Source: Longimicrobium sp. (lineage in GTDB: Bacteria > Gemmatimonadota > Gemmatimonadetes > Longimicrobiales > Longimicrobiaceae). From it: DNA of 41,396 nucleotides. Below, one piece after another: positions 420 through 22,200 of this stretch (within the stretch, counting starts at the first letter, position 1; every line of letters begins with the position of its first letter). Position numbers and translations under genes: made by a program. Location: assembly GCF_035474595.1 (NCBI RefSeq), contig NZ_DATIND010000048.1, positions 1 through 41,396 of the forward strand. Direction: 5' to 3'. The notes under the pieces were generated by a model. That model saw only the letters and a program-made list of their open reading frames with translations. It did no database searches and was not told the origin of the DNA.

Positions 420-2756
420 ATGGAAACGCAGATTGTGCCCTGCCGCGCCGAGATCTCGGACCGCTTTCCGGTGGCCTCGTTCGCCGTGAACGTGCCGCCG
501 GCGCGCTGCTTCGAGGTGGCGTGCGCAACGGACCCGCGCCTCTTCCACACCGACTGGCAGCGCTACCGCTCGCCCCGGAACTTCTACTCCAGCCGCTCCG
601 AGGGGCTCATGCGCGCGCCCGGCGGCCACACCGCCTGGTTCATCCCCCCCGAGCAGCTGCGCCGCTTCGCCGGGTCGCAGCGCATCTACTACGCGCTGGC
701 CACCTACGAGACCGCGTATGGCGGCTCGCCCGAGTTCTCCATCTCGCCCGACGGGCTGGAGCGCATCCCCTTCATCGGCGTGGCGGGCGACTTCACCGGG
801 CGCGGGCTGGACCGCTCGCGCCTGGGCATCCTCCCCCCGCCGCCCGACGCGTACGGCGCCGTGGACTCCGCCTCGCTCACCTGGGGCGGCGACGCGGCGC
901 TGGCCGCCTACCGCGCCGCCGAGGCCGCGCCCCGCCAGGGCGAAGACTACGACGACGGCTATCCGAAGGACCTGTGGCAGGACGGCGCGCCCGCCGGCGA
1001 GGGCCACATGGCCAGCCAGGCAGGGGTGGGGGATGGGTCGCACGACGCGGGTGCCGGCTGCAACGACGCGTACGGCGACGACGAGCACGTGGCCGCCTCC
1101 GGCTCCGCGCTTGCCGCCTCCGGCTCCGCGCTGAGCGACGCCGGCCCCGCCGACTCGGGGACGTGGGAGGCGGATGGAGACGAATCGGCCTCTGCCTGTG
1201 CCTATCCCCACTCCGCCGAAGGCCCGGCCGACTCGGGGACGTACGAGCCGTACGAGGAGGAGCCGGCCACCGCCTATTCCTATCCCCAGTCCGCCGAAGG
1301 CCCCGCCGACTCGGGGACGTACACGTACGACGACCCGTCGAGCCACGACGCCGGCTACGCGCACGGCACCTCGTCCGGCAAGTACGGCGAGGACGAGCCG
1401 CCCGCGTCCGACGGCTACGGCGGCGTCCACGGCGACGCGGAGGAGGACGACGACGATGCCGCGTACGGCGGCTACCCCGACGCGGCCGCGCTCTACGGCG
1501 CCGGCGCGGACGGGGACGAGGAGCTGGCCGGCGGCTACCAGGACGCCGCGGAGATCAACGCCTCCGGCGCCTCCGCCGGCGACGGATCGGGAGATGGCGA
1601 CGAGGAGCCGCCGTACGAGGACGGCGGCGGCTACGGCGGCGCGTACGGTCCCCCGTCGTTCGAGCCCGCGTACGGCTCCGTCTACGGCGGCGGCTACGAT
1701 CCGTCGGCGGAGGATTCCGAGGGCGGCGTCGCGGTCGCGGAGCCGGAGGTGGGCGCGGAGGCGCAGGGCACCGCGCAGCCCGCTTCGACGGGGCGCGACC
1801 CTGGCTACAGCGAGGAGGAGCCGGAAGACTCGCCGCTTCCCGTGGGCCACGCGGTGCAGGCGCTCGCGGTGGTTCCCCTCGACATCGCCGAGAAGGTGCG
1901 GATCCTCCGCGTGGTGGCGAAGGCCGAGAGCGGGGCGGACGGATACGCCGCCATCAACCCCGACAACGAGTACAACGATCCCCACCACCCGGCCTATCAC
2001 CGCACCCACATCGGCCTGAGCTGGGGGTTCATCCAGTTCACCCAGCGCAGCGGCTCGCTGGGGCGCGTGCTGCAGGCCGTGAAGCGCCGCGAGGACGCGC
2101 TGGGCGCCGCGCTCCCTGCCGAGCACCGCTTCGCCGCGCTGTTCGGACCCGCCTGGCAGGCGCTGCTCGACGTCACCTGCGCGCACGACGCCGAGGCCCG
2201 CGTGGCCGAGGTGGGCGGCAAGCCGCTGTGGCACCCGGAGTGGACGGCGCGCTTCCGCGCGGCGGGGCGGGTGCCGCACGTGACCTACGCGCAGAACGAG
2301 ATCGCCATCACCGACTACGTGGACCCGAGCCTCCGCGTGGCCCGCTGGCTGGGCTTCGACAACGCGCGCGCGCTGGCCATGCTGTGGGACCGCTGCATCC
2401 ACATGGGCATCGGCGGCGGCACCGCGTGGATCCTGCGCCACTGCGGCCCCGTGCGCACCGACGAGGAGCGCCGCGCCGCCCTGGCCGCGCTGGGGCACGC
2501 GGACCTCCGCGCCTTCCAGCAGAGCCAGGCGCCGGACCTGGGCGCCGACGGCCGCTGGGGCCCGCGCACGCACGCCGCGATGGTGGCCGCGCTGCGGGGC
2601 ATCGGCGCGCGCTCGCCGGTCACGATCCCCACCCGCGACGCCCTGCTGCAGCGGATGGTGGACGCCTCGGCGGGGACCGGCTTCCAACGCCGGCTGTCGG
2701 CGCTCCACGCGAACCGCGCGGACTTCGACGACGCCACGACCTACACGCTGGTCTGA
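420..2756 (+). CDS. Lysozyme-like peptidoglycan hydrolase with acidic repeat linker
   Basis: First gene of the locus, 778 residues from the ATG at 420; the frame opens further upstream but the METQIVP start begins the folded-looking sequence. Residues 1-180 form a globular domain of unknown function. Residues about 180-475 are an acidic, Gly/Tyr/Asp/Ser-rich linker with three imperfect GPADSGT repeats near 242-300. Residues about 485-690 look like a lysozyme or transglycosylase fold: KAESGADGYAAIN puts a candidate catalytic Glu at 503, and GLSWGFIQF resembles the GLMQI-type motif of that superfamily. Residues about 690-730 (LRAFQQ, then GADGRWGPRTHAAM) match a peptidoglycan-binding-1 repeat. 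There is no signal peptide, so export would be non-classical. The next gene starts 4 bases after the stop. The fold and the catalytic residue are inferred from motifs only. Confidence 0.7.
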   Translation: METQIVPCRAEISDRFPVASFAVNVPPARCFEVACATDPRLFHTDWQRYRSPRNFYSSRSEGLMRAPGGHTAWFIPPEQLRRFAGSQRIYYALATYETAYGGSPEFSISPDGLERIPFIGVAGDFTGRGLDRSRLGILPPPPDAYGAVDSASLTWGGDAALAAYRAAEAAPRQGEDYDDGYPKDLWQDGAPAGEGHMASQAGVGDGSHDAGAGCNDAYGDDEHVAASGSALAASGSALSDAGPADSGTWEADGDESASACAYPHSAEGPADSGTYEPYEEEPATAYSYPQSAEGPADSGTYTYDDPSSHDAGYAHGTSSGKYGEDEPPASDGYGGVHGDAEEDDDDAAYGGYPDAAALYGAGADGDEELAGGYQDAAEINASGASAGDGSGDGDEEPPYEDGGGYGGAYGPPSFEPAYGSVYGGGYDPSAEDSEGGVAVAEPEVGAEAQGTAQPASTGRDPGYSEEEPEDSPLPVGHAVQALAVVPLDIAEKVRILRVVAKAESGADGYAAINPDNEYNDPHHPAYHRTHIGLSWGFIQFTQRSGSLGRVLQAVKRREDALGAALPAEHRFAALFGPAWQALLDVTCAHDAEARVAEVGGKPLWHPEWTARFRAAGRVPHVTYAQNEIAITDYVDPSLRVARWLGFDNARALAMLWDRCIHMGIGGGTAWILRHCGPVRTDEERRAALAALGHADLRAFQQSQAPDLGADGRWGPRTHAAMVAALRGIGARSPVTIPTRDALLQRMVDASAGTGFQRRLSALHANRADFDDATTYTLV

Positions 2757-2760
2757 CGCG

Positions 2761-3882
2761 ATGAGCACACAGGCCGCGGCGGCCCTGGCAGCCACCCGCA
2801 GCATCCGCCAGTCCTCCGGCTACGCCGCGCTCGCGCACGGCGAGCGGCAGGCGCTGGAAGCCGACCTCCGCCGCATCGAATCGGCGCTGGCCCCCGCCGC
2901 GCTCGCGGCCGCGGCGGCGTACGATCCCTACGCCATGCCGCTGGAGACGCCGGCCGACCTGCAGCGCATGCAGCAGGGCGGCCTGGCCCCCGGCCAGCCG
3001 CAGCCGCAGCCGTCGCCAGCTCCCGCCGCGCCGCCGGCGCGCGCGGGGACGGAGACCATCGGCGAGCGGGCGCGGGCGGCGCTGGAGGCGGTGGACTTCC
3101 CGTCGTTCGTGGCCGAGCTGATCCACGGGACCTTCCAGGCCATCGTGGACGCCACCGCGCAGCAGATCCGCGAGTACGCCAAGCTGGTCTCGTCGCTCGC
3201 GCAGACGACCGAGCAGTTCGGGCGCGAGAACGTGAGCCCCAACCAGGTGCGCTTCGGGCTGGCCGAGCGCCACCCCGCGGACCTGGTGGTGGTCGTCCCC
3301 AGGGCGGGGGAGCGGGGAAGCCCCGCGCTGAAGCCGCGGAAGAAGGACGACGCCGGCTCTCCCGCCTGGCTCGCGGAATACGGGCTGGCCGGGCAGGAGC
3401 TGACCGCGGAATTGGCGGAAGGGGCGCTGCTGGAGGCCGGGCAGCGCAACATCGCCGAGGAGCGGATGCAGAACCTGGCGACCATGGTGCTGCTGGGGAT
3501 CAACCGCATCGTCATCCAGGACGGCCAGATCAAGGCGCGGCTGCAGTTCCACGCCAGCGCGCGCGAGAGCGTGAAGGCCGACGTGGCGGACGTCGGCGCC
3601 GCCATCCAGGGCGGGATCGCCGGGCGCGACGCCGGGTCGCAGGGCGCGGTGATGACCAAGGTCTCCACCGTATCGGTGAACGCGCAGGCCGACGTGGCCA
3701 TCAAGGCCAACCTCGTCGGGGAAGTCGCCATCCGCTTCCGCAGCGAGACCTTCAACCTGGAGCGCTTCGCCGATTCGCAGGCCATCGAGCTGATCAACCG
3801 CCACAGCCGCCTGCAGCGCCCGGGCGAGGCCGCCCCGGCCGCGCCGCGCCCCGCCGCCGCTCCGGCCGGGGGTGCGCCGTGA
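2761..3882 (+). CDS. Paralogue A of the five-member VDFP/GINRIV family
   Basis: A 373-residue protein of unknown function and the first of five paralogues in this locus. It has an N-terminal helical segment (1-50), then a Pro/Ala/Gln-rich linker. The VDFPSFVAELI block (111-121) continues into a long predicted helix up to about 155. GINRIVIQDG (246-255) begins a beta-looking C-terminal domain, which ends in GEVAIRFRSETFNLERF. The last 25 residues are Ala/Pro-rich. It is the most divergent copy after E: IQDGQIKARLQF replaces the usual VTDGxINAKxxF. The C-terminal half reminds me of DUF2589, but I could not test that. It has no signal peptide or membrane span. It sits 4 bases after the lysozyme-like gene and overlaps the next gene by 4 bases, so the genes are probably co-translated. 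Confidence 0.7.
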   Translation: MSTQAAAALAATRSIRQSSGYAALAHGERQALEADLRRIESALAPAALAAAAAYDPYAMPLETPADLQRMQQGGLAPGQPQPQPSPAPAAPPARAGTETIGERARAALEAVDFPSFVAELIHGTFQAIVDATAQQIREYAKLVSSLAQTTEQFGRENVSPNQVRFGLAERHPADLVVVVPRAGERGSPALKPRKKDDAGSPAWLAEYGLAGQELTAELAEGALLEAGQRNIAEERMQNLATMVLLGINRIVIQDGQIKARLQFHASARESVKADVADVGAAIQGGIAGRDAGSQGAVMTKVSTVSVNAQADVAIKANLVGEVAIRFRSETFNLERFADSQAIELINRHSRLQRPGEAAPAAPRPAAAPAGGAP

Positions 3883-4115
3883 CCCGCGTGGAAGAGCTCA
3901 TCACGCATCTGGCCGGCGCCTTCGCCGGCGAGCACCCCGAGGTTCCCGGGCTGGGGATCGAGGTCACCGAGGTGCGCATGGACCTGCCCATCGAGGCCCG
4001 CATCGTCCGCGGCGGCGAGGTGGAGATGTCGCTCCCGCGCGGGATGCTGCGCACCGGCTTCGGCGGGCTTCCGCTGGGGCGGCTCCGCCTCCTGCTGGTG
4101 AGCGGGGAACCGTGA
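3879..4115 (+). CDS. Small acidic/beta protein, unknown, coupled to adaptor
   Basis: A 78-residue protein with a GTG start overlapping the stop of the preceding gene (GTGA), while its own stop overlaps the GTG of the following gene. One short helix (VEELITHLAGAF) is followed by strands such as GIEVTEVRMDLPIEARIV and GEVEMSLPRG. The I-x-V-x-x-V-x-M-D-L-P-I-E pattern resembles the strand core of the Trypco2-like domain in the next protein, so it may be a minimal relative; this is a weak, by-eye similarity. The coupling on both sides argues that it is a real gene whose product is needed in stoichiometry with its neighbours. I do not recognise a named family. Confidence 0.55.
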   Translation: MTRVEELITHLAGAFAGEHPEVPGLGIEVTEVRMDLPIEARIVRGGEVEMSLPRGMLRTGFGGLPLGRLRLLLVSGEP

Positions 4116-4969
4116 ACGGCCAGGCGCCGCGCGGCGGACGCGCGTTCCCGGTCGAGGAGTTCGTGCAGGCGCTCTCGGCGCAGCTGGACCGCGCGCAGGA
4201 CGGGCTGGCGCTGAAGGCCCGCACCGGGCGGCCGCTGACCTTCGCCATCAAGGACCTGAGCATCGACCTGCGGGTGTTCTGGGAATCGGACGCCGCGGGG
4301 CGCGTGCTGGTCCGCCACGCCGGGCCCAACGAGGAAGGCGCCAGCACCGTGCACCTGAACTTCACCACGATCACCAAGGAGATGGTGGAAGAGAACACCT
4401 TCTCCCTGGGGATGGACGAGGACCCGCGCGGGCTGCAGGACCTCCCCGGCGAGCAGGGCTTCAGCGAGCAGGACCGGCGCCGGCTGGAGATGATCGGCGT
4501 GCGTACGGTGGGCCAGCTGCGGCGCCTCTCGTCCGAGACCGACAGCAAGACGGTGGAGACCTTCGCGGGAGTGCCCATGATGCGCCTGCAGGCGGCGCTG
4601 CTGCAGGCCGCCCGCCCCTCCGTGACCGGCGTGGAGCCGGTGCGCCGCAACGGCAAGCAGCTGCTGCGCGTGCGCGGCGCCAACCTCGACAGCGACGAGG
4701 CGCTCGAGGTCCGCCTCTCCGGCGAGGCGGTGGAGGTGCTCGAATCGACCCCCACCTCGCTCCTGGTGCGCCCGATGTCGCACCACCGCGAGGGGCGCGT
4801 GGAGGTGAGCGTGGGCGGGGCGATGGCGACGGGGTTCTACGACCTGCCGGCGGACTTCCGCGCCCCCGCGGAGCTGCGCGACCCGGGCGCCGCGATCCGG
4901 CACGCGGGCGAGACCTTGGCGGTGCCGCTGATGGCGGTGCCCGCCGGAAACGGAGCGGAGCATGATTGA
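4112..4969 (+). CDS. Trypco2-like / helix-hairpin-helix / IPT-TIG adaptor protein
   Basis: 285 residues from a GTG at 4112; the open frame extends upstream, but that part is out-of-frame shadow of two other genes. Residues 12-95 (FPVEEFVQALSAQL, LTFAIKDLSIDLRVFW, then STVHLNFTTI) look like the trypsin-co-occurring domain Trypco2, which in published conflict-system analyses accompanies peptidases. Residues about 117-168 (IGVRTVGQLRRLS, then FAGVPMMRLQAALLQAA) look like tandem helix-hairpin-helix units. Residues about 170-245 (SVTGVEPVRRNGKQLLRVRG) are an IPT/TIG beta-sandwich. This suggests a non-enzymatic adaptor. The next gene, a subtilisin, starts 8 bases before this stop, so adaptor and protease are probably made together. 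The domain calls are by eye. Confidence 0.65.
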   Translation: MNGQAPRGGRAFPVEEFVQALSAQLDRAQDGLALKARTGRPLTFAIKDLSIDLRVFWESDAAGRVLVRHAGPNEEGASTVHLNFTTITKEMVEENTFSLGMDEDPRGLQDLPGEQGFSEQDRRRLEMIGVRTVGQLRRLSSETDSKTVETFAGVPMMRLQAALLQAARPSVTGVEPVRRNGKQLLRVRGANLDSDEALEVRLSGEAVEVLESTPTSLLVRPMSHHREGRVEVSVGGAMATGFYDLPADFRAPAELRDPGAAIRHAGETLAVPLMAVPAGNGAEHD

Positions 4970-6446
4970 CCAGGCACCGGACCGCCCCTGGGCTCCCGAG
5001 CGGAGCCGGCAGGCGCTGCGCGGCCGAGTCCTGGTCCGCGTGGCCCCGGGCGAGGCCCCCGAGCGCGTCCCCCACCGCGCCGACGTGGCCGCGGGGCTCG
5101 CGGTCGCCCCGCTCTCGTTCGACGGCGGGCACCTGGACCGCGCGGTGAAGCGCTTCTCCCCCGCGCTCCGCGTGGTCCGCGCCTTCGCGCCGGCCGCGCG
5201 CATCGGCAACCCCGGCGCGCGCGAGCACCGCTGGAGCGACCTGGAGCACGAGACCGGCCTCGCGCGGATGTTCCGCATCGACGTCGATCCCGAGGCGGAC
5301 CTGGTCGCGCTGATCGACCACGTGGGGGGCCTGAGCGTGATCGAGTCCGTCAGCCCCGTCTACCTCGCCGTCACCCCGTTCCGCATTTCGGTGGAGCGAT
5401 ACGGCGCCCCGCGGCCGGTGCCCAAGGATCCGTGGTACGCGCACCGGATGATCCACGCCGCCGAGGCGCTGGCGATGGAGCCGGGCGACAGCGCGCTCAT
5501 CCTGGCCGTCGTGGACAGCGGGATCGATCTCCATCACCCCGAGCTGGAAGGCGCGCTGCGGCCGGGGTTCGACACCGTGGATCTCCCCGACGACCAGGTG
5601 CCGCGGACGATGCGGCTGGTGGGCGACTTCTCGCGCCCCGACAAGTCGCCCCAGGACGAGGTGGGGCACGGCACCGCCTGCGCCGGGATCATCGCCGCGA
5701 AGGGCGAGCGGCTGCCGAAGGGGATCGGCGGGGCGGTGCGGGTGATGCCCGCGCGCGCGCTGGCCGGGGCGCAGATGGTGGGGCGGGAGACGAAGACGGC
5801 GATGGGAAGCCTGATGGACATCGACCTGGCCGTGAAGATGGCGGTCGATCTGGGCGCCCGCGTGCTGAACCTCTCCTTCGGCACCCCCGAGAGCTCGCTG
5901 CGCGAGCGCGACCCCCGTCCCCACAAGGAGATCGTCGATTATGCCAGACGGCGGGGATGCATCCTGGTCGCCGCCTCGGGCAACAGCGGGAGCACCGCGC
6001 GCTACTACCCGGCGTGCCTGGACGGCGTCATCGCCGTGGGCGCGGTCGGCCCCGATCAGCATCCGACCGACTTCACCACCCGCGGCGACCACGTGGACCT
6101 GTGCGCCCCGGGGGAGAGCATCCCGTCGACGGCCGTCGGCGGATACCAGCTGAACACCGGGACGTCGTTCGCCTCGCCGCTGGTGGCGGGGGTGGCGGCG
6201 CTGGTGGCCGCGCGGTCGGCGCGCTACAGCGAGCCGATCGGCGGCGAGGAAGTGCGCGAGCTGCTGAAGCGCACCGCCCGCCCCTTCCCCCGCGGCGCCG
6301 ACGCCGCCGGGTGCGGGGCGGGGATCCTGGACGCCCGCGCGGCCGTGGAGGCGCTGGAGCGCGACCTGTCGGCCGGCGACGGCGAAGGGCACGCCGCCCG
6401 CCCCGCGCCGGTGCGCGAGCCCTCCCCGGCGGCGCGCTCGCCGTAG
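4962..6446 (+). CDS. Subtilisin-like serine protease (peptidase S8)
   Basis: A 494-residue protease with a complete catalytic set: Asp185 in LAVVDSGIDLHHPEL, His236 in GHGTACAGIIAA, oxyanion Asn341 in VAASGNSGS and Ser402 in GTSFASPLVAGVAAL. Residues 1-160 are an N-terminal extension that could act as a propeptide or docking region. There is no signal peptide, which is unusual for S8 enzymes and fits an intracellular or cluster-specific role. The start ATG at 4962 has GGAG just upstream and overlaps the stop of the Trypco2-like gene by 8 bases. The protease could mature or trigger the surrounding proteins, but its substrate is not shown by the sequence. The family call is secure; the role is inference. 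Confidence 0.95.
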   Translation: MIDQAPDRPWAPERSRQALRGRVLVRVAPGEAPERVPHRADVAAGLAVAPLSFDGGHLDRAVKRFSPALRVVRAFAPAARIGNPGAREHRWSDLEHETGLARMFRIDVDPEADLVALIDHVGGLSVIESVSPVYLAVTPFRISVERYGAPRPVPKDPWYAHRMIHAAEALAMEPGDSALILAVVDSGIDLHHPELEGALRPGFDTVDLPDDQVPRTMRLVGDFSRPDKSPQDEVGHGTACAGIIAAKGERLPKGIGGAVRVMPARALAGAQMVGRETKTAMGSLMDIDLAVKMAVDLGARVLNLSFGTPESSLRERDPRPHKEIVDYARRRGCILVAASGNSGSTARYYPACLDGVIAVGAVGPDQHPTDFTTRGDHVDLCAPGESIPSTAVGGYQLNTGTSFASPLVAGVAALVAARSARYSEPIGGEEVRELLKRTARPFPRGADAAGCGAGILDARAAVEALERDLSAGDGEGHAARPAPVREPSPAARSP

Positions 6447-6525: not shown

Positions 6526-8187
6526 ATGGCCGCCGCGACCCCGACCCCCACGCAGTGCATCGAGCACTACCCGGACATCTTCACCCCCGTACCGGCCAGC
6601 GAAAAGCCGGGCCCGGGCGGCGTGAAGCCCACCGAGGCCGAGAACAGGCGCCACCAGGTCCTGTACTCCGCCGTCCTCTTCCTGCTGCGGAAGGACTTCT
6701 CGTTCGATTCCGACCGCAGCGCCACCGTTCGCGCCAGGGACTTCCCCAGCGGCTTCGGCAAGAAGGGGACGTCGCCGCACGCGCGGACCTACGACGACCT
6801 GCTGCTGGACGAGAAGGTGCTGTTCGCCTCGGTCTACGGCATCCTCCTCTCCCGCAACCTGGGCGACCCGTCGCTGGGGCGCGCGGCCACGGGAAGCCCG
6901 GGGCCCAACGACATCTTCGTTCCCCCCGCGGAATCGGACGGCGAGATCGTGCTGATCGTGGAGCGCTTCGTGGAGGCGGTGACCGACGCGGTGAAGCGCT
7001 TCAACTCCAATCGCGCGCTCTTCCGCGAGGTGTTCCGCGTGCTGCTGGAGGAGGGGAAGAAGACGGAGGACGCCGAGGAGACCACGCTGCAGACGCGGCT
7101 GCTGGCCGAGGTGGCCGGACGCCTGATCGAGGACCGCATCAGCGCCGACAACCCGCAGATCCGCCGCTTCGTGGTGACCGCGCTCACGCAGGCGCTCAGC
7201 AGCCGCGTGGACGGCAGTGCCAGCGACATCGACATCCGCGACATCGACCTGGAGGCGGGGACCGCGGTGGACATCGTGGCCGCCAACGTGATCGCCGTCG
7301 CCGGCCTCTACCGCGCGGCCATGCTGGAGGAGATGAAGCTGTTCGCGGTGGCCGACAAGGTGGCCGAGCACTTCACCATCGGCATGATCCCCATCTCGCG
7401 CGGGCCGGCGGGCGACCGGCTGTTCACCTGGATCCGCGGGGCGCCCGACCGCTTCACCGAGGTGGAGCGCCGGTCCATCTACGGCCGCGTGCTGGGGCTG
7501 GCGCAGGGGAACGCGCAGAACCTGCTGCCCAACCGCGAGTTCAGCGACCTGTGGATCCGCTTCCTCTCCATCGTGAGCGTGCTGAACCGCGAGGTGGTGA
7601 CCACCATGCCCAAGTCGGCCACGGCCGAGCAGGCGCTGAAGTCGGCGCGCGACCTGGCGGTGAACCTGAGCCTGCACGGCTTCGGCGTGGCGCACTTCGC
7701 CGCGGTGGAGACGCAGCAGCTCCTGCAGCAGGTGCTGGACATGCTGCAGCAGGCCGAGATCCTCTCGGCTTACGGCACCAGCGACTACCTGCAGCTGGTG
7801 GACCGCCTGAGCGGGATGTACCTGGGCGGCAGCGTGAACACGGTGCGCTACCGCACCATGGCGCAGGCCGGCTTCAACATCATGCGCTTCCTGGCCGAGC
7901 ACGCGCCGCAGCTGTCGTCGAGCAGCGCGGTGGCGAGCGCCGCGCTCTTCGCCGACCCGCTGCTGGTGGACAACGTGGAGCGCTGGCTGGCCGTCACCGG
8001 CACCCCCGACGCCAGCGTGCAGAAGTACACCGACCCGGTCGACCTGAAGTCGCAGCCCACCATTCCCGCCTTCGCGCCCATGTCGGGGCTGGGGATGAAC
8101 GGCGGCGGCGACCGCGCGGCGGTGGTCAGGAACGCGCTGGAGCAGGTGGGTCTGGGCGGGGCGCTCCCCGCCGTCCCGCAGATCTGA
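6526..8187 (+). CDS. Helical protein H1, unknown family (homologue of H2)
   Basis: A 553-residue, almost entirely helical protein with no recognised domain. AGGAGGA lies about 8 bases before the ATG, the best ribosome binding site in this locus. The C-terminal half, from RFTEVERRSIYGRVLG at residue 309, matches the 288-residue protein encoded at 13190: the two share RFT-x-x-ER-x-x-x-x-GRVLG, then LxxxGxGxAxFAAxxxxxQ, then QAGxxIxxxxAxEAPxL. The N-terminal half carries a conspicuous acidic stretch (SASDIDIRDIDLEAGTAVDIV). There is no signal peptide or clear membrane helix. It starts a second sub-block of the locus, 79 bases after the protease gene. A structural or scaffold role is possible but not shown. 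Confidence 0.7.
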   Translation: MAAATPTPTQCIEHYPDIFTPVPASEKPGPGGVKPTEAENRRHQVLYSAVLFLLRKDFSFDSDRSATVRARDFPSGFGKKGTSPHARTYDDLLLDEKVLFASVYGILLSRNLGDPSLGRAATGSPGPNDIFVPPAESDGEIVLIVERFVEAVTDAVKRFNSNRALFREVFRVLLEEGKKTEDAEETTLQTRLLAEVAGRLIEDRISADNPQIRRFVVTALTQALSSRVDGSASDIDIRDIDLEAGTAVDIVAANVIAVAGLYRAAMLEEMKLFAVADKVAEHFTIGMIPISRGPAGDRLFTWIRGAPDRFTEVERRSIYGRVLGLAQGNAQNLLPNREFSDLWIRFLSIVSVLNREVVTTMPKSATAEQALKSARDLAVNLSLHGFGVAHFAAVETQQLLQQVLDMLQQAEILSAYGTSDYLQLVDRLSGMYLGGSVNTVRYRTMAQAGFNIMRFLAEHAPQLSSSSAVASAALFADPLLVDNVERWLAVTGTPDASVQKYTDPVDLKSQPTIPAFAPMSGLGMNGGGDRAAVVRNALEQVGLGGALPAVPQI

Positions 8188-8306: not shown

Positions 8307-8344
8307 ACCCAGCACTCCCCAACCCACGGCCTTCGAGGACCAAG

Positions 8345-13193: not shown

Positions 13194-14056
13194 GCTCTCC
13201 CGCGCTCCTTTCGCCCGCGCAGCGCGCCGCCGCCGAGGCGGGGCTGGCCTACGCCGAGCAGGCGATGGCGCGCCACATGGAGGCGGTGGGCACGCGCTAC
13301 GGCCCCGCCGCGCTGGGGGTGATCGACCTTCCGCCGCTCACCGGCGGGCGGCTGGTGGACGCGCAGATCCGCGTTTCCGGCGTCCTCTACTGGGCGGCGG
13401 AGCTGGAGGCGGCCGGGCTCCTCCCCTTCGTGGAGGCGCTGGCGGAGGGCGTGGCGACCGGGGCGGTGATGGAGCCGCTGGGCGCCGCCGTGCACGAGCT
13501 GATCCGGTTCTGGCGCTCGCGCGAGCACCGCTTCACCGGCGCCGAGCGGCTCGCGCTCTTCGGCCGCGTGCTGGGCGGCGCCGCCTCCACCGGGGAAGCC
13601 GTCGAGCCGCTCCTGGCCACGCTGGTGGAGACGCTGGTGGCGCTCGGCCGCTCGCGCGCGGACGTGGGGACGGGGGCGCTGGAGGCGCGCGCGGCGGTGC
13701 AGGCGCAGGCGCTGGGCTCCGTCCTTTCCTCGCGCGGCGTGGGGATCGCCGGGTTCGCGGCGCGCGACGTGGTGGGGCAGGTGCGCGCCGCGCTGGGCGT
13801 GCTGCGCAATGGCGACGTGGTGCGCGCGATGGGCGGCGGGAGCCCGTGGACGATCGTCACCCGCCACGCGCCGCGCTTCCTGCGGCGCATGGTGGACGCG
13901 CAGCCGCACCTGGAGCGCGCGCAGGCGGGGATGCGCATCGTGGGCTGGATCGCGGACGAAGCGCCGCGCCTGGACGCCGGCGCCGTGCGCATCGCGCGCG
14001 GCGCGCAGGTGGTCCACGACGCGGAAGCCTGGAGCGCCGCGGCCGGAGCCGCGTGA
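13190..14056 (+). CDS. Helical protein H2, half-length homologue of H1
   Basis: 288 residues, helical, no named family. It corresponds to the C-terminal half of the 553-residue H1. RFTGAERLALFGRVLGG at 114 aligns with H1 residue 309. SSRGVGIAGFAARDVVGQVR then aligns with H1 LHGFGVAHFAAVETQQLLQQ. QAGMRIVGWIADEAPRLD aligns with H1 QAGFNIMRFLAEHAPQLS. H2 therefore looks like a shortened duplicate inserted between paralogues D and E. Both ends overlap neighbours (ATGA with D; one shared base with E). Pairing a long and a short helical protein with the five-member family suggests that they interact, but this is inference. Confidence 0.72.
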   Translation: MSSPALLSPAQRAAAEAGLAYAEQAMARHMEAVGTRYGPAALGVIDLPPLTGGRLVDAQIRVSGVLYWAAELEAAGLLPFVEALAEGVATGAVMEPLGAAVHELIRFWRSREHRFTGAERLALFGRVLGGAASTGEAVEPLLATLVETLVALGRSRADVGTGALEARAAVQAQALGSVLSSRGVGIAGFAARDVVGQVRAALGVLRNGDVVRAMGGGSPWTIVTRHAPRFLRRMVDAQPHLERAQAGMRIVGWIADEAPRLDAGAVRIARGAQVVHDAEAWSAAAGAA

Positions 14057-15573
14057 TGCGCCCCGCGGGAACGCTCGAGACCGTGCGCCGCGCCGTCCGC
14101 CGCGTGGTGGAAGGCACGCCGGAGCTGCGGCGCGACGCCGCGCTGCGCCGCCGCATCGCCCAGGGCATGGTGCGCGTCTGCGCCGCCGCGGCGGAGCTGA
14201 TGGAGGCGGAGGACCGGCTGACGGGGGAGATCTCGCGGCGGGGACGGCAGGGGACAGGGGAGAGGGGACGGGGGACAGAGGGCGGGGAGATGGAATCTCG
14301 TCCGTCCTCCGGATCTCCGTCGTCCGGATCTCCGTCGTCCGGATCTCCATCTTCCGAGTCTTCGGATTCTTCTCCCGCCCTGGCCGCGGGGATGGCCGTG
14401 TCTCCATCTCCATCCCCCCGATCGAAAACTCCGCGCGGGGCGATGGCGAGCGGGCAGGCGGCGGGGGACATCCATCGCCGCACGGCGGTGAATTCGGCGG
14501 CGGGCGTGCTGCGGGCCACGCGCGATGCCATCGACTTTCCCGGCTTCGTCAACTCGCTGATCACCGGCGTCTTCTCGGCGATGACCACCTCCACCATCCA
14601 GCAGCTGCAGGCGTATGCCGACCTGCTGGGCGCGGTGGGGATGAGCACCAGCCAGTTCGCCTCCAGCAGCATCACCGACGGGCGGGCCATGGACTGGGTG
14701 GCGCAGCGCTTCCCCGCGTTCCGCGTGGTGATCGCCGAGGGGCAGCCGCCGCGCCTGGCGCTGAACGACGGCGCCGACATGCCCGACGCCGACGAGCTGA
14801 AGAGCGCGCTGGACGCCAGCGACGACGAGGTGTCGACGGTGGACGACGACGAGCTGGGCGAAACGCTGGTGCCGCTGGTGAAGCGCAAGCTGGCCCGCGA
14901 GCGCCAGTCCATGCTCTCCACCATGCTGCTGATGGGGATGAACCGCATCGTGGTGGACGACGGGCGGATCCGCGCCTCGATGGAGCTGCAGGTGGATGCG
15001 CGCAGCACCGCCGAGCAGACCACCGCCGAGCGCGCCGACACGCGGGTGACCACCGGCGGCAGCGCCAGCTTCGGGATGGGGATGTGGGGCGCCAGCGCCA
15101 ACATCCAGGCCACCGTGGGCTACGTGAAGAGCGACGAGCAGTTCAGCCGCGAGGACATCGCGCTGCGCGCCGGGCTGCGCTCCAGCGTGGACATCGGCTT
15201 CCACACCGAGCCCATCGCGCTGGACCGCATGGCCGGCGCGGGCGCGGTCCGCCACATCCGCGCGCAGTCGATGGTGCCCGAGACGGAGGCCCGGCTGGAG
15301 AACCTGCTGACCGCCGACGAGCGCCGCACCGCGCACCCCGCCTTCGAGGCGATCCCGCAGGCGCAGCCCGCGCCCGCCCCGAACTCCGACGAGGCCCGTG
15401 CCCTCCGCCAGCGCCAGAACAACACCGTGGGCGACGGCACCACCGCCTCGGGCGGAAGCGGCGCCTCGGGCGGAAGCGGCGCGACGACCGCGACGACTCC
15501 GGCGTCCACGACCACGACAGCGCCGGCGGAGGCCGCGCCGGCGACGGAAGCCGTCGCGGCCACGCCGCCCTGA
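14056..15573 (+). CDS. Paralogue E of the VDFP/GINRIV family, with low-complexity insert
   Basis: 505 residues from the ATG at 14056, which overlaps the H2 stop; the frame is open further upstream, but that part lies inside H2. Residues 1-55 match the N-terminal helical domain of the family. Residues about 56-135 are a low-complexity insert: a G/A-rich stretch (14228-14290), then three 15-bp units encoding GSPSS (14311-14355), then SPSPSP. It resembles intergenic filler seen elsewhere in the window. IDFPGFVNSLITGVFSAM begins at 159 and GMNRIVVDDGRIRASMEL at 294. The C-terminal block diverges (SSVDIGFHTEPIALDRM), and the tail is Thr/Ala/Pro-rich. E is the last paralogue before the 15574-15695 gap. 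Function unknown. Confidence 0.7.
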   Translation: MRPAGTLETVRRAVRRVVEGTPELRRDAALRRRIAQGMVRVCAAAAELMEAEDRLTGEISRRGRQGTGERGRGTEGGEMESRPSSGSPSSGSPSSGSPSSESSDSSPALAAGMAVSPSPSPRSKTPRGAMASGQAAGDIHRRTAVNSAAGVLRATRDAIDFPGFVNSLITGVFSAMTTSTIQQLQAYADLLGAVGMSTSQFASSSITDGRAMDWVAQRFPAFRVVIAEGQPPRLALNDGADMPDADELKSALDASDDEVSTVDDDELGETLVPLVKRKLARERQSMLSTMLLMGMNRIVVDDGRIRASMELQVDARSTAEQTTAERADTRVTTGGSASFGMGMWGASANIQATVGYVKSDEQFSREDIALRAGLRSSVDIGFHTEPIALDRMAGAGAVRHIRAQSMVPETEARLENLLTADERRTAHPAFEAIPQAQPAPAPNSDEARALRQRQNNTVGDGTTASGGSGASGGSGATTATTPASTTTTAPAEAAPATEAVAATPP

Positions 15574-15695: not shown

Positions 15696-18600
15696 ATGGC
15701 CGACCCCGTAACCTCGAAAGCCGCGAAGACGCCGCCGCTGGTGGTGCTGAGCCCCACGCGCCACGCCGCGCTGGTGGCCGCGCTCGACGCGGCGGTGGCG
15801 GCCGACCCGGCGCTGGCCGGCGCGCGCTCGCTGCTGCTGACGCCGCTGACCATGCTCGAGGCGCTGGCCCGCGACGCCGTGGGCGCGCTGGGCGACGACG
15901 TGCTGGCCGCCGAGCGCCTGCGCCTCCTCCTTGCGCTCGCCGCCACGCAGATGCCGGCGCTCACCGCCTTCCGCGACGTGCTGGGCGACTCCACGCCGTC
16001 CAGCGGCATCTCCTCCAGCTTCCCCATCCCGGCCCTCGCGGCGGCCGCCATCCCCTGCGACGACGCGGTGGTGCACGCCGGCGCGCTGGTGATCGTGGCC
16101 CTGGCCGCCGGCAGGGTGGGGAAGAGCACCGGGCTGGCCGATCCGCTGCTGAACAACGTGCTGGCGACCGCCCTCGCCGCCGGCCCCGCCGAGGCTGTCT
16201 CGCGCGCCATCGCGTCGGGGATGGGCACGGACCAGGTCCGCGCGCTCCTGGCCGGGCTGGCCGCCGGCCACAACGGCGAGGACCGCCGCCTTTCCGCCGT
16301 CATCGCCACCTTCCTGGCCGACGCCTGCGAGCGCGCGCGCTGGGCGTGCCTGGAAACGCTCTTCACCCAGGTGCGCCGCGACGTGGCCGGCAGCACCTGG
16401 GACGCGGCGGGAACGGGGGGCATCGTGGAGGTCGATCCGCGCGCCGCCTGCCCCGGCCAGCCCGTGAGCATCCGCGTGGAGCCGGTGGACGACGGGCCCA
16501 TCATCTTCCTGCGCACCAGCGCCACGCCCGAGACGCCGCTGGACGCCGCGCACTTCCTTCCCCTGCTCGAGGCGAAGGCCGCCTCGGTCGTCTTCGCCGC
16601 GCAGGGACGCCGCTCGGTCGCGCGTCTGGCCGACGCGGTCGACGCGCAGACGGGCGTCGTCACCGTCACCGTTCCCGCCGGGGCGCACGGGGGGTGGGTG
16701 GGCTTCGCCGATCCGGCGCTGCTGGCCGAGACCAACGACGACCGAAGCGCGCTCCGCGAGCAGTGGGACGAGCGCAACACCGGCGAGCCCGCGCTCCGCT
16801 GCGCGCCCGTCCCCATCGCCGCCATCCCGCTGCTGCGCAACCCGCCCACGCCGCCGCGCTCGCCGCAGGCGCGGTTCGACGGCGGCGCGCCGGTCATCCT
16901 CGCCGCTTCCATCTCTCCGCCCGTGGCCGACCCCGGCGGCGAGCTGCGGCTGAAGTGGCGGGTGCAGGGCGCCACCTCCGTCCACGTGGACCCCAGGCCG
17001 GGGGTGGTGGAGGCCGAGGGCGAGGCCACGGTGAAGGCGCCGGAAGACCGCGCGCACGCCGAGTTCGTGCTGGTCTGCGAGAGCGGGTGCGGCGATCCGC
17101 TGCGGCGCAGGCTGCGGGCGCGGGTCCGCGTGCGCATCCGCGCCATCGCCGCCGACCAGCCGGAGCGCACCGCGCTGGCGCTGAAGCTGGTCGGCACCCC
17201 CGGCAAGGCGAACGTGAACGTCCGCCTCTCCTCCTTCGCCGCCGCGCCGGCGCGCCCGCTGGTGGCCGGCGAGGCCTTCCAGCTCACCGCCACCCTCTCC
17301 GCCGCCGACGCGCGCGGCCGCGCCGAGCTGCGGATCGGCGACGAGGCGAAGGCGATGAAGCTGGAAGGGGGGAAGGCGACGATCACGCTCCCCGGCCGCT
17401 ACGCGGTGGACGGGCTCGCCGGCACCGTCGTCTTCCGCGCGCCCGACGGCGAGATCGACGACCGGCGCGACTTCGGCCCCCTCGCCTTCGTCACCCTGCG
17501 CCAGCGGCGGCTGATGGTGATCCGCCCCGGCCTGGCCACCCGCGACCTGCACCGCGTCGCCGCCGGCGAGGTCGCCCGGGCGCTGGACGAGGCGCGGCGC
17601 ACGCTGGCGATGGAGATCGACGCGGCCGAGCCGGTGTGGGCGGACGACGAGGAGCTTTCCCTCACCGAGCCCGCGGACGGGCCCGACGTCACCGCCACCG
17701 CCGACCTCCTCGAGCGGCTGCACGCCCTGGCCGCCCGCACCCCCGGGCGCGAGGACGCCCTCTGGGTCGCCGTCGTCCCCAAACCGCCGAAGAGCGAGTT
17801 CCTGCGCGTGGAGCCCGCCGAGGCCGCGCGCGCCGTGGCCGTCTGCACCCCCGGCGCGCTGGCCCGGCTGCTGGACGCCGAGCTTCCGGCCGCGGAGGCG
17901 CGCGTCACCCGGCTCAGGATCGCGGGAACGGTGGACGGCGCCAGCTCCATCCGCCTGCAGCCGCTGCGCGTGGAGGACCGCGCCGCCGGCCCCGGTGCCC
18001 GCGTGGAAAGCGGCCTCCGCGCCGTCGCGCTCGACGCGCAGGGGCGCGTCCGCGCCTCGCGCGCGGTGCGGCTGCTCACCGCCGACCGCCCGGCGCGCCT
18101 CTTCGTCCTCCTCCCCATCACCAGCGACGTCACCGACCTGGAGATCCGCATCGACGACGGCCAGCCGCCGCTCCCCGCGATGGACCCGTACGGCTTTGGC
18201 GCGCTCTGCGGCGACGGCTCGCGCGACAACCCGCTCGCCCTGCGCCGCATCCACCGCTCCGAGGGCCAGCCGGAGGTGAGCGGCGTGGAGACCCAGGGAG
18301 ACGGGCTGGCCTTCGAGTACGGCCACACCCGCTCCGCCCGCTCGTCGATCGTGGTCGAGGCCGGCGGCGCGCGGGGATGGGGCACCGTCCTCCGCCTGCA
18401 GCCCTGCCAGGAGGCGGGAACGCTCCCCGTCGACCGCCTCCGCCTCCGCGACGACGACCGCATCCGCGTCGCGGCGACGGACGGGTGGAACACCGACTTC
18501 GCGCCCGACGTGGGGCTCCCCATCCCCCGCACGCCCCCCTTCTCCGTGGCCGCGCGCCACGCAGGCGGGCTCCGGTTCTGGGCGGACGTGGACGAGGGCG

Positions 18601-18830
18601 GCGAGCCGTCGATCGCCTGGACGCTGCGGGAGCTGGACGGCACGGGTGAGGTGGTCGGGGAGACGGCGTTCGAGGGGACGCTCGTCACCGTCCCCCGCGA
18701 TTTCCCGGGCGGCGACCTGACGCTCACCGTGGTCCGCGGCGAGACCGCCGTCTCCGACACGCGCACCATCTCCCGCGATGGGCGGGTGGACTGCCGGCGC
18801 ACCGAGCTGCCGGAGGACGCCCATGCCTGA
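15696..18830 (+). CDS. Large multi-beta-domain protein with helical head, unknown
   Basis: 1044 residues with GGGAGAG upstream of the ATG. Residues 1-215 are helical and Ala/Leu-rich. From about 225 onward the chain is mainly beta and reads as a string of sandwich-like domains: VEVDPRAACPGQPVSIRVEP near 246, an Ig-like unit starting VILAASISPPVADPGGELRL near 400, another starting PLVAGEAFQLTATL near 520, and further units to the C terminus. I see no catalytic motif, signal peptide or membrane span. Such a layout is typical of adhesion, fibre or scaffold proteins. The downstream hydrolase gene starts 8 bases before this stop, the same overlap geometry as the adaptor/protease pair at 4962, so the two products may act together. 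Confidence 0.7.
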   Translation: MADPVTSKAAKTPPLVVLSPTRHAALVAALDAAVAADPALAGARSLLLTPLTMLEALARDAVGALGDDVLAAERLRLLLALAATQMPALTAFRDVLGDSTPSSGISSSFPIPALAAAAIPCDDAVVHAGALVIVALAAGRVGKSTGLADPLLNNVLATALAAGPAEAVSRAIASGMGTDQVRALLAGLAAGHNGEDRRLSAVIATFLADACERARWACLETLFTQVRRDVAGSTWDAAGTGGIVEVDPRAACPGQPVSIRVEPVDDGPIIFLRTSATPETPLDAAHFLPLLEAKAASVVFAAQGRRSVARLADAVDAQTGVVTVTVPAGAHGGWVGFADPALLAETNDDRSALREQWDERNTGEPALRCAPVPIAAIPLLRNPPTPPRSPQARFDGGAPVILAASISPPVADPGGELRLKWRVQGATSVHVDPRPGVVEAEGEATVKAPEDRAHAEFVLVCESGCGDPLRRRLRARVRVRIRAIAADQPERTALALKLVGTPGKANVNVRLSSFAAAPARPLVAGEAFQLTATLSAADARGRAELRIGDEAKAMKLEGGKATITLPGRYAVDGLAGTVVFRAPDGEIDDRRDFGPLAFVTLRQRRLMVIRPGLATRDLHRVAAGEVARALDEARRTLAMEIDAAEPVWADDEELSLTEPADGPDVTATADLLERLHALAARTPGREDALWVAVVPKPPKSEFLRVEPAEAARAVAVCTPGALARLLDAELPAAEARVTRLRIAGTVDGASSIRLQPLRVEDRAAGPGARVESGLRAVALDAQGRVRASRAVRLLTADRPARLFVLLPITSDVTDLEIRIDDGQPPLPAMDPYGFGALCGDGSRDNPLALRRIHRSEGQPEVSGVETQGDGLAFEYGHTRSARSSIVVEAGGARGWGTVLRLQPCQEAGTLPVDRLRLRDDDRIRVAATDGWNTDFAPDVGLPIPRTPPFSVAARHAGGLRFWADVDEGGEPSIAWTLRELDGTGEVVGETAFEGTLVTVPRDFPGGDLTLTVVRGETAVSDTRTISRDGRVDCRRTELPEDAHA

Positions 18831-21800
18831 GCCGCGCATGGAGATGGAGACGCGCGCGCGCCGCCGCTTCGACGTGTGGAACGAGGTGCCGCTCGTCCCC
18901 CAGCTCACCGGGATGAGCTGCTGGGCCGCCGCCGCGGCCATGATCATCGGCTGGCGCGACCGCATTCTGGTGGACCCGCCGCAGGTGGCGCGCGGAGCGG
19001 GGAGCTGGCAGTCGTACGCCGGCGGGCTGCGGCCGGGCGACGTGCAGTCGCTCGCCCGCGCCTGGGGGCTGGTGGAGGAGCACCGCGAGACGTGGACGCC
19101 CGAGGCGCTGCGGCGCGTCCTCCAGCGCCACGGCCCCGTCTGGCTGGGCGAGGCCAGTCCCGGTCTCCATTCCGTCGTCGTCGCCGGGATGCACGGCGAC
19201 GGCACGGCCGACGGCACCTGGGTGCGCGTGAACGACCCGTGGCCCATCGGCCGCGGCGAGCGCTACACGCTGCCGTGGCGCACGCTGAGCGCCAACTACC
19301 GCGCCGCCAGCGACCTCATCGGCGTGCAGGCCCACGTCCTCCACGCGGGGGGACGCCGCGGCTCCGCCCGCTCGCGCGTGGCCGAGACCCGCGCCACCCG
19401 CTCCGGCATCACCCTTCCCCCCTTCCCAGCCCCCGAGGAACCCATGAACAGCAACGGGAACGGCAGGCGCCCGCACCCCGAGGAATACGCCTCGGCGTAC
19501 GGAACGTCGTACGGGTCGCCGCTGGCGGTGGCGGCCGCGGCGGTCGCCGCCGGCGAGCGCTACGTGAGCACCGGCGCGGGGGGCGGCACCAACCCGCTGG
19601 CCAGCCACGGCGGCACGGGCGAGAACCTGTACCTGGCCTGGAACGCGATGTCGGGCGATGCCGCGCAGATCGACCTCGTCGTGCACCTGCACGGCTTCAC
19701 CGGGAGGAACCCGGACGCGGCGTGCACCCGCTTCCTGGCGGGGCGCAGCGGGCTGCGCCTGGACGGGCGCGCGCGCCCGACGCTGGCCATCCTCCCGCGC
19801 GGCCGCAAGATCACCGCGGCCGAAGTCGAGGCGAAGCAGCCCGCGTACCAGCAGAAGCTCAGGGAGTATGAAGCCCTGCTCGCCGAGTACAACGCACACC
19901 CCGCGGGCCGGCGGCCGCCGCGCAGGCCCTCGCCGCCGCGCGACGACGTGTACACCTTTCCCGCGCTCGAGCACGGGAGCGGGGCGGGGCTGGAGGCGCT
20001 GGTGGCCTGGGCGGTGGCGTGGTTCGCCCGCGAGGTGCTGCAGCGCGGCGAGCGGCCGGGGATCGGCCGGTGCATCCTGGCCGGCCACTCGGGCGGAGGC
20101 GCGCCGGTGAACGCGCTCCTGCAGTGGAAGGACCAGCGCGCCATCTGCAACCCGCACGAGGTCCACCTGTTCGACGCGCTGTACGGCGGCACGGGGAACA
20201 TCGTGGCGTGGGCGGGCGCCCGCGTGGCAGCCGACCGCCGCCTGGCCGCCGGCCTTTCCCCCGCCGACGCGCTCGCGCGGCTCCGGGCACAGGGCGGAGG
20301 GCTGCGGATCTTCTACCGCGGCGAAGGGACGATGCCGAACTCCCAGGCGGTCGGCGCCACCCTCCCCGCGGCGGGCGACCCGCTCCAGGGCGCCTACCGC
20401 GCCGAGCAGACGACGTTCCCGCACGAGGACGTCCCGCGCGCCTTCCAGCCCGCGCTGCTGGGCGACGTGCGCGCCACCCTGCCGCTGGACCCGGCCGCGC
20501 GCCCGCCCGCCAGCCGCGCCCACTCGGCGGACGGGTACGGCGAGTACTCGGCGGAGGAGGATACCGCGATGGAGCCGGCCTACGGCTACCCCGGCGCCGG
20601 TCCGTACTACGGCTACGTGGCCGCGCTGGCGGTGGACGACGACGTGCGCGCCTGGCTGGCCGCGCGCGCGCCCACCGACCGCGCGCCGCTGGCCGCCGGC
20701 GTGGCCGCCTGGATCACCGACACCGCGCGCTCGGGGATCGACCTGATCGGCGACGCCACGCGGCGGGCGCACTTCCTCACCGGGGTGGACTGGACGCGCG
20801 TGGACTTCCCCGGCAACGATGCCGACCGCTCGGCCGAGGCCACGGCGCTCTTCGCGGCCATCGCCGCCGCCGTCCCCGAGCGCCGGGTGACGGCGCTGCG
20901 CTACCACGACGTGGACGCGGTGGTCCAGCCCGTTCCCGGCGCGTCCGGGTTCCGCCTGCACCCCGAGGCGAAGGACGCCTTCGTGCGCATGCGCGACGCG
21001 GCCCGCACCGACGGGGTGGAGCTGCGCATCGGCTCGGCGTGGCGCTCGCTGCAGCACCAGGCCCGGCTCGCGGCGGGGAACCCCAACCCCAACGCGGTGG
21101 CGCAGCGCGTCTCCGCGCACTCGTACGGGCTGGCGGTGGACCTGCTGCTCTCCGCCGACGGGCTGCGCGTGAGCGAGATCACCACCCGCCCGTTCACCAA
21201 CGTGGTGGCGATGTACCGCTCGCCCGTGTACAAGTGGATGGCGCTGCACGCCCGCGACCACGGCTTCTTCCCGTACCGGCGCGAGCCCTGGCACTGGGAG
21301 TACAACCCCGCGGGCTTCGGCGAGCGCTTCGAGCGCGAGGCGCCGGCCGCGGCGCACGGCCACGCGTACGGCGCGCCGTTCGGCCTGTTCGAGCGCTATC
21401 CCGGCGGCGCGCTGGACGCCGCGCCGGTGAACCGCATCGCCGTCCCCCGCATCGCGCGGCCGTCGCTGGGCGAGGGGATGCAGGCCCCGGCGCCGGTGGA
21501 CTGGTGCGCCATGCGCACCACCATCGCCAACGTGGCACTGGCCGAGGAGCGGCGGTGGACGCGGCCGAACGGCACCAAGCTGGTGGAGAGCGACGCCAGC
21601 CAGCTCGCCATCCTGCAGCAGTACTGGCAGTCGGTGCCCGGCTTCGCGGCGCCCGCGGCGGCGCTGGCGGCGGCGCGGCGCTCGGCCAACAACGAGCGCT
21701 TCTGGGAGTGGAGCGCCGCCTTCATCTGCCACGTGATGCACACCGCGGGCGTGCAGCGGGCGCACGGCTTCGAGTTCGCGGGGCGGCACATGAACTACAT

Positions 21801-22200
21801 CGTGGGCGCGCTGCGCAACCGCGAGCGCAGCGACACCACCCGGCCGTTCTGGCTGGTGGACCACCTGGAGCTGGCGCACGAGACCACCCTGGAGCCCGGC
21901 GACCTGCTGTGCCTGAACCGCCCGGTCGAGCACGTGTGGACGAACCACACCTACACCAGCCTGCGCCGCGCCTTCTGGGAGAACGGGCACCAGAACGCGG
22001 ACGTCACCGGCTCGTCGCACGTCGCGCTGATCGTGCGCACCGGGCAGGACGCGCGCGGCAGGTTCGTGGAGACGATCGGGGGGAACGAGACGCAGTCGGT
22101 GCGGCTGCGCCGGGTGGACCTGGACGCGAACGGGGGCATCGCCAACGCACAGGCGCGGCACATCTTCGGGCTGATCAAGATGACCGGCTGCAACCGCTGA
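18823..22200 (+). CDS. Four-domain hydrolase: C39/AvrRpt2-like, alpha/beta hydrolase, VanY-like M15, DUF2272-like
   Basis: 1125 residues from the ATG at 18823, preceded by CGGAGGA; an in-frame ATG at 18778 lies deep in the upstream gene. Residues 15-175 match AvrRpt2/C39-type cysteine proteases: Gln27, Cys33 in GMSCWAAAAAM, His116, Asp138 in VNDPW. Residues about 280-545 look like an alpha/beta hydrolase: HLHGF at 288-292, nucleophile elbow GHSGGG with Ser423, and Asp451 and His534 as possible partners. Residues about 690-830 match VanY/M15 D,D-carboxypeptidases: SAHSYGLAVD with His766 and Asp773, and WHWE with His824. Residues about 893-1120 match DUF2272, an NlpC/P60-like fold: WSAAFICHVM with Cys969, and GSSHVALIV with His1066. 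Gly/Tyr-rich linkers separate the parts. There is no signal peptide. It combines proteolysis and wall cleavage in one chain. Confidence 0.85.
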   Translation: MPEPRMEMETRARRRFDVWNEVPLVPQLTGMSCWAAAAAMIIGWRDRILVDPPQVARGAGSWQSYAGGLRPGDVQSLARAWGLVEEHRETWTPEALRRVLQRHGPVWLGEASPGLHSVVVAGMHGDGTADGTWVRVNDPWPIGRGERYTLPWRTLSANYRAASDLIGVQAHVLHAGGRRGSARSRVAETRATRSGITLPPFPAPEEPMNSNGNGRRPHPEEYASAYGTSYGSPLAVAAAAVAAGERYVSTGAGGGTNPLASHGGTGENLYLAWNAMSGDAAQIDLVVHLHGFTGRNPDAACTRFLAGRSGLRLDGRARPTLAILPRGRKITAAEVEAKQPAYQQKLREYEALLAEYNAHPAGRRPPRRPSPPRDDVYTFPALEHGSGAGLEALVAWAVAWFAREVLQRGERPGIGRCILAGHSGGGAPVNALLQWKDQRAICNPHEVHLFDALYGGTGNIVAWAGARVAADRRLAAGLSPADALARLRAQGGGLRIFYRGEGTMPNSQAVGATLPAAGDPLQGAYRAEQTTFPHEDVPRAFQPALLGDVRATLPLDPAARPPASRAHSADGYGEYSAEEDTAMEPAYGYPGAGPYYGYVAALAVDDDVRAWLAARAPTDRAPLAAGVAAWITDTARSGIDLIGDATRRAHFLTGVDWTRVDFPGNDADRSAEATALFAAIAAAVPERRVTALRYHDVDAVVQPVPGASGFRLHPEAKDAFVRMRDAARTDGVELRIGSAWRSLQHQARLAAGNPNPNAVAQRVSAHSYGLAVDLLLSADGLRVSEITTRPFTNVVAMYRSPVYKWMALHARDHGFFPYRREPWHWEYNPAGFGERFEREAPAAAHGHAYGAPFGLFERYPGGALDAAPVNRIAVPRIARPSLGEGMQAPAPVDWCAMRTTIANVALAEERRWTRPNGTKLVESDASQLAILQQYWQSVPGFAAPAAALAAARRSANNERFWEWSAAFICHVMHTAGVQRAHGFEFAGRHMNYIVGALRNRERSDTTRPFWLVDHLELAHETTLEPGDLLCLNRPVEHVWTNHTYTSLRRAFWENGHQNADVTGSSHVALIVRTGQDARGRFVETIGGNETQSVRLRRVDLDANGGIANAQARHIFGLIKMTGCNR
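19434..19446 (+). promoter_or_regulatory. Possible internal ribosome binding site and start (Met208)
   Basis: GAGGAA followed five bases later by an in-frame ATG at 19444 (residue 208, MNSNGNGRR), exactly at the junction between the cysteine-protease domain and the rest of the four-domain hydrolase. It could give a shorter product lacking the protease, or mark an old gene fusion. No stop codon separates the two parts. Confidence 0.35.

Follow-up and report, generated by a model that had tools for sequence, protein, structure and literature searches.

The stretch of DNA analysed here, called the window, is an entire Longimicrobium sp. contig (C48, 41,396 bases) within a 6.57-Mb genome, and its subject of interest is a cluster of 14 genes on the + strand at positions 420-22200. 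An earlier note, made from the sequence alone, had described 14 same-strand genes with mostly 4- or 8-base overlaps; the genes and their strand are supported by patterns of GC content at the third codon position and by homologues of nearly every gene, while in gene calls redone from codon-position GC and homology such overlaps occur at 7 of the 13 junctions, with gaps of 4, 79, 157, 34, 4 and 122 bases at the remainder. A gene-calling artefact was ruled out because the homologues keep the frames. These genes make up a genuine system, conserved widely and in its order, and their combination matches none of the families tested for their defining features. The genes are as follows:

420..2756, + strand: g1, payload; N-terminal domain of about 150 residues (7-159), disordered linker with YDDGY (177), C-terminal lysozyme/GH46-like and peptidoglycan-binding-like domain (493-759)
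2761..3882, + strand: g2, paralogue A, first position
3879..4115, + strand: g3, small protein universal to the cluster, 78 residues, no family
4112..4969, + strand: g4, Trypco2-like domain, helix-hairpin-helix-like segment (by eye), IPT/TIG domain
4962..6446, + strand: g5, S8 subtilisin with N-terminal extension, triad D185/H236/S402 and N341, without signal peptide
6526..8187, + strand: g6, helical protein hel1, homologous to hel2
8345..9430, + strand: g7, protein of predicted ABBA/DMATS prenyltransferase fold, putative diphosphate site R72/K146/Y148/R194/K257/Y329
9465..10844, + strand: g8, paralogue B
10849..12030, + strand: g9, paralogue C, clade-specific sister of D
12027..13193, + strand: g10, paralogue D, predicted helices and then a long amphipathic beta-hairpin
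13190..14056, + strand: g11, helical protein hel2
14053..15573, + strand: g12, paralogue E, always after hel2
15696..18830, + strand: g13, large protein without known family, present in clade I relatives (loci L029-L031, L035)
18823..22200, + strand: g14, hydrolase; C70 papain-like, alpha/beta-hydrolase-like (by eye), VanY (M15) and DUF2272 domains

Matches in standard library searches were limited to S8 in g5, IPT/TIG and a sub-threshold Trypco2 in g4, and C70, VanY and DUF2272 in g14; no family was assigned to A-E, hel1, hel2, g3, g7 or g13. The homology of the two helical proteins, proposed previously, is borne out by a hel1-hel2 match at E 3e-17, and in agreement with the reported lack of signal peptides, a simple hydropathy scan identified no obvious hydrophobic signal or transmembrane segment in any cluster gene.

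Conservation of the cluster and its paralogues

A scan of a genome collection with an A-E profile gave 64 loci, which were annotated with the window proteins. Gene order is kept between A and g3 (46/46), g3 and g4 (48/48), g4 and the S8 gene (49/49), the S8 gene and hel1 (47/47) and hel1 and g7 (52/52), and further 3' between g7 and a paralogue (52/53), a paralogue and hel2 (47/47) and hel2 and a paralogue (42/43), with a single strand for all 557 scored cluster genes. Homologous clusters are present in at least seven phyla, with hosts in Gemmatimonadota, Myxococcota, Pseudomonadota, Acidobacteriota, Cyanobacteriota and Chloroflexota, plus the actinomycete Nocardioides, and a full set lies on a Burkholderia pyrrocinia megaplasmid, where it is annotated as hypothetical proteins, S8 peptidase and amidase. 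Homologues of the individual genes are not scattered and the neighbourhood is kept in distant genomes; the earlier suggestion of an undescribed system of conserved order therefore stands on these near-complete counts, no description of the cluster having been found in open-access PMC full text, the literature searched. Near-perfect order over at least seven phyla, in genes mostly annotated as hypothetical proteins, makes this module of 10-12 genes a large gap in bacterial annotation.

The distribution of g7 is patchy, with convincing matches in 2 of 298 genomes of the window's phylum, 19 of 198 Lysobacteraceae, 7 of 401 genomes of Albitalea's family and 1 of 398 sampled Pseudomonadota, this last being the centre genome itself. 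Across the 198 Lysobacteraceae genomes g7 and A-E co-occur tightly in both directions, the exceptions being one genome with three paralogue copies in which no g7 was found (a fragmented assembly is suspected) and three single weak matches. The g7 tree places the window in a group with Myxococcota, Thiodiazotropha and Marinagarivorans and apart from the cluster of a genome of its own family, which points to a likely horizontal transfer of the cluster. A phage or mobile-element origin was rejected: no relatives were found in viral contigs or phage records, and the one plasmid record is the Burkholderia megaplasmid. Decayed single paralogue fragments lie in two genomes of the same genus as the window (L025:13800-14627 in G001 and L027:8372-8656 in G008), and Cupriavidus necator A5-1 (L053) carries a decayed cluster.

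The five related proteins previously noticed in the window are confirmed as a family, with identities to B of about 37-38% across A-D and 26% for E. Four (A, B, D, E) or, with C, five copies are present, all inside the cluster and none elsewhere in the 12 genomes and one plasmid record counted, among them that of C. necator A5-1 with its decayed paralogue set. In a tree of 139 paralogues each position forms a pure clade (A 44/44, B 31/31, E 28/28, C and D together 36/36), C is the clade-I sister of D, and the position-specific clades span phyla. A, B, C where present, D and E hold fixed gene positions and are non-interchangeable. The purity of these clades by position suggests that the paralogues already had distinct roles when the cluster began to spread and have retained them, as would be expected of an obligate heteromer, and the position-specific clades together with the fixed copy number strongly indicate a multi-subunit assembly, as had been proposed.

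The predicted model of D is weak (pLDDT, the predicted local distance difference test score, 72; pTM, the predicted template modelling score, 0.46) and comprises N-terminal helices, long helices and then two strands of about 43 residues arranged as a hairpin. Searches of PDB sequences with A-E profiles gave no significant match. Three candidate relationships were considered. Homology of A-E to g3 or to the Trypco2-like g4 was not supported by profile comparison. DUF6683 gave weak matches in 22 of 55 members (best 6.7e-5), and the match in window B is a short N-terminal stretch only. DUF2589 (PF11655; L118-L122) is collinear with the C-terminal part of E through a helix motif, the hairpin and the C-terminus, with a score of 25.7 against 24.4 for the best of 20 shuffles, which is barely above the shuffles and not significant; it is kept as a lead. 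The E coding sequence contains a 15-bp tandem repeat (SSGSP) at 14235-14480, and this segment matches about 47 other places in the same genome over short stretches and is a dispersed repeat inside a conserved gene.

Prenyltransferase fold, subtilisin and payload

The interpretation given in the earlier note is partly supported overall, having missed the fold of g7, which it left unassigned, the N-terminal domain and linker motif of the payload, and the role of the hydrolase as the variable part of the cluster. An AlphaFold2 model of g7 (PRENYLTRANSFERASE fold), built from 43 homologues with a pLDDT of 89 and a pTM of 0.87, ranks the indole prenyltransferases CymD and IptA at the top of a Foldseek search (E 4e-13), and its structural alignment with CymD (VIA) extends over 316 residues with a Z of 28.4 and a root-mean-square deviation of 3.2. 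By this model, g7 has the ABBA/DMATS prenyltransferase fold, a ten-stranded barrel of alpha-beta-beta-alpha units. Residues R72, K146, Y148, R194, K257 and Y329 are positioned on predicted barrel strands and are kept in the window and most homologues; this basic and tyrosine set is a putative diphosphate site that resembles in make-up the one described for EpzP, with its four basic residues and two tyrosines (PMC3485228). In 11 of the 43 homologues all four of R72, K146, Y148 and R194 are missing and Arg stands in place of K257, and these 11 form one clade with 100/100 support. This concerted loss of most of the putative diphosphate residues suggests that g7 probably acts as an enzyme in two of the clades and has a structural role in the third. 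The relationship to the known enzymes CymD, IptA and PriB is distant: sequence identity is only about 14-18%, g7 has no Pfam or NCBIfam membership, and PDB sequence searches with the g7 profile gave no significant match. Furthermore, unlike these enzymes, g7 lies in a cluster without small-molecule genes and a whole clade of it is without the diphosphate set.

The subtilisin previously recognised in g5 matches S8 in Pfam at E 3.6e-42, and the invariance of the S8 triad and oxyanion Asn in 48 of 48 sequences supports an active protease. The proposed Trypco2-like adaptor could be located in g4, albeit at E 0.012 and 16.3 bits against a gathering score of 24.2 for PF19631, which is below the cut-off; 6 of 31 g4 homologues match at E up to 0.1, the best at 1.7e-4. 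The Trypco2-like domain of g4 is combined with the helix-hairpin-helix-like stretch seen by eye and with a TIG-like domain. The neighbouring g3 was found in 49 loci, though divergent.

The gene directly 5' of A is the variable part of the cluster, encoding Amidase_2, trypsin, C70, C92, CHAP, M15 or GH46/lysozyme-like domains in changing combinations. Nearly every complete payload begins with an N-terminal domain of about 150 residues, the exceptions being proteins with the lysozyme-like domain alone, for example at two short loci of Roseobacteraceae (L064, L071). This N-terminal domain has no Pfam match and no convincing PDB match; it lies beside the cluster and was found in 24 of the 27 genomes or records searched, once each bar one marginal second match, and in none of the three genomes with decayed copies. 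The low-complexity linker that follows contains exactly one Y[DST]DG[FYLW] motif in 18 of 18 payloads, against 0.03 expected from shuffling. Of 12 held-out payloads, 10 carry the exact motif and two YNDGY, and a broader Y-x-D-G-[FYLW] motif is present in 30 of 30. Certain lineages encode the lysozyme-like domain as a protein of its own, with repeated GQYPDDVW-like motifs, and in clade I, to which the window belongs, and clade III further hydrolases follow the last paralogue. The four-domain hydrolase reported in the window is such a case, with C70, VanY and DUF2272 identified in g14 by library match and an alpha/beta-hydrolase motif by eye, and wall-acting domains are upheld more generally by the wall- and protein-cutting domains in g14 and in the payloads of relatives. 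The lysozyme-like assignment of g1 itself fared less well: the window protein has no Pfam match, one homologue matches GH46 below the cut-off, and the Glu presumed to be catalytic lacks conservation. Within g1, a 78-bp tandem repeat at 1143-1322 encodes a Tyr-rich linker repeat (GPADSGTY...).

Interpretation of the cluster

The favoured reading, held at a probability of about 0.42, is that the cluster encodes a self-contained heteromeric machine, made in the cytosol and switched on by the subtilisin, that carries a single latent, exchangeable hydrolase payload and breaches an envelope. We infer docking, latency, proteolytic switching, protein prenylation and envelope breach as its steps: the paralogues, hel1 and hel2 would form a heteromeric assembly in the cytosol, onto which the payload would dock via its N-terminal domain and motif and be held latent; g3 and g4 may be adaptors or regulators of the subtilisin, which would cleave the assembly or the payload to switch it on; and g7 would add a prenyl group to a flexible aromatic residue in one of the cluster's proteins, perhaps for membrane attachment, and in one clade would keep a structural role only. 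The outcome would be an enzymatic breach of the cell envelope, either the producer's own in a regulated lysis or, after release by lysis, that of a neighbour.

Several points weigh against this. No export signal (hydropathy scan), immunity gene or known release route was recognised for the cluster, and envelope attack is not the only use to which the hydrolase domains could be put. In relatives, the counterpart of the lysozyme-like domain of g1 may lack activity. The first 18 payloads served to define the linker motif, and the 12 held out are for the most part closely related to them. Foldseek searches of PDB and viral models gave no match to the D fold at E <1e-3, and since the D model is of low confidence and has no significant structural match, the shape of the assembly and any membrane contact are guesses.

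Whether the cluster is a new weapon or lysis machine, in which four or five obligate paralogues assemble into a hetero-oligomer and dock one swappable poly-hydrolase by way of an N-terminal domain and the Y-x-D-G-aromatic motif, with the machine's own cytosolic subtilisin as switch and protein prenylation by an ABBA-fold enzyme, is more doubtful. Polymorphic toxins and injection-system effectors likewise combine a constant N-terminal part with changing C-terminal enzymatic domains; however, only one payload is present per genome, solely beside the cluster, with no clear orphan copies and no known immunity gene or secretion apparatus. In this cluster an aromatic-prenyltransferase fold and a subtilisin are brought together with obligate paralogous subunits and with a modular hydrolase whose putative docking region is constant, a set of parts that are not known to work jointly. 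Should the cluster prove to be a device for lysis or predation, it would represent a new class of envelope-attacking machine, and if g7 modifies a protein, bacteria would have an unexpected kind of protein prenylation. With the gene set, the invariant residues and the linker motif at hand, these ideas are directly testable in culturable hosts (Luteimonas, Lysobacter, Ramlibacter, Chitiniphilus).

The very long predicted hairpin of D raises the possibility that A-E form a pore and, further, that they are a released toxin complex: a hetero-oligomeric beta-barrel pore or translocon, built through the long hairpins and activated by the subtilisin, that delivers the payload across the outer membrane of a neighbour in predation or competition. 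In all five paralogue groups the arms of the hairpin show an alternation of hydrophobicity far above that of shuffled sequences, in E the tip shows it as well, Foldseek gives weak stem-like matches of D to pore-forming proteins, there is a single payload per genome, and many of the host genera are lytic or antagonistic. Nevertheless, this scenario is unlikely: the tips of A-D do not alternate, the hairpin tip in the D model has a confidence <50 pLDDT, the Foldseek matches extend to other hairpins and are not significant, and the cluster has neither a signal peptide nor a conserved immunity gene.

Slightly less likely again is an intracellular conflict or programmed-lysis system akin to the Trypco-peptidase systems, in which the subtilisin and trypsin-type domains, triggered by a threat, would bring about the cell's own death. 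Trypco domains are named from such systems (PMC7159879), and the cluster shares with them a Trypco2-like domain beside a peptidase, here one with its active-site residues intact; trypsin domains occur in many payloads, and the distribution is patchy and horizontally spread. However, the Trypco2 match is mostly below the cut-off, the core protease is S8 where theirs is trypsin, and the MoxR-vWA or NTP (nucleoside triphosphate)-dependent sensor parts that define Trypco systems were not seen: no MoxR, vWA or VMAP partner is among the annotated genes of L092, and none was noticed among the other called cluster genes, not all of which were Pfam-scanned. The cluster was also found in none of the viral contigs or phage records searched and on one plasmid only. 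A known anti-phage defence system was rejected, PADLOC having returned generic subtilase-type models and no system match.

A ribosomal-peptide or natural-product pathway is improbable, although an S8 protease and an ABBA-fold protein sharing one cluster recall the cyanobactins. In those pathways (PatA/PatG, PatF/LynF) a subtilisin and an ABBA-type prenyltransferase act on one ribosomal polypeptide, and inactive prenyltransferase homologues such as PatF exist (PMC4663559), comparable to the g7 clade with the lost diphosphate site; repeated aromatic motifs in the linkers of cluster proteins could also be read in this way. In contrast, a survey of open reading frames of at least 60 residues found no short precursor gene, the smallest universal gene being the variable 78-residue g3 with no core-like cassette seen, and there is no macrocyclase, heterocyclase or other tailoring enzyme, while four to five conserved large paralogues and multi-domain hydrolase payloads are foreign to such pathways. 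A phage-tail-like or extracellular contractile injection particle with hydrolase cargo, consistent with a multi-subunit gene set that lacks signal peptides and has lytic cargo domains, is already disfavoured and very improbable, given that no sheath, tube, baseplate or ATPase genes were recognised and that PHROG, Pfam and Foldseek, the last with the low-confidence D model, assign A-E to no phage-tail or injection component and reveal no convincing viral relatives, an outcome in keeping with the earlier proposal.

Flanking regulators and repeats

The cluster begins 420 bases from the contig end, with positions 1-419 before it, so that any regulator or second payload gene lying further upstream in this genome would be out of view. 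Directly 3' of the cluster, on the opposite strand, lies a sigma-54-type response regulator (22636-23997, - strand), and a related regulator with 37.5% identity precedes the cluster in a genome of the same family (L022:3630-5141). Proteobacterial clusters are preceded by a gene for a BTAD-like regulator, recognised by eye, with a protein of about 100 residues (FIVRVW...WRGSVEHV...FFR); examples are L077:1810-2970, L087:3088-4269, L078:3964-4989, L064:667-1617 and L071:250-1227, and in other lineages a sigma-54 type regulator replaces the BTAD-like one. Heptamer tandem repeats (AGTGCCA, CACTAGG; AGTCCTA, ACTTAGG) fill 8193-8316 in the gap between g6 and g7 and the intergenic stretch 24046-24130.

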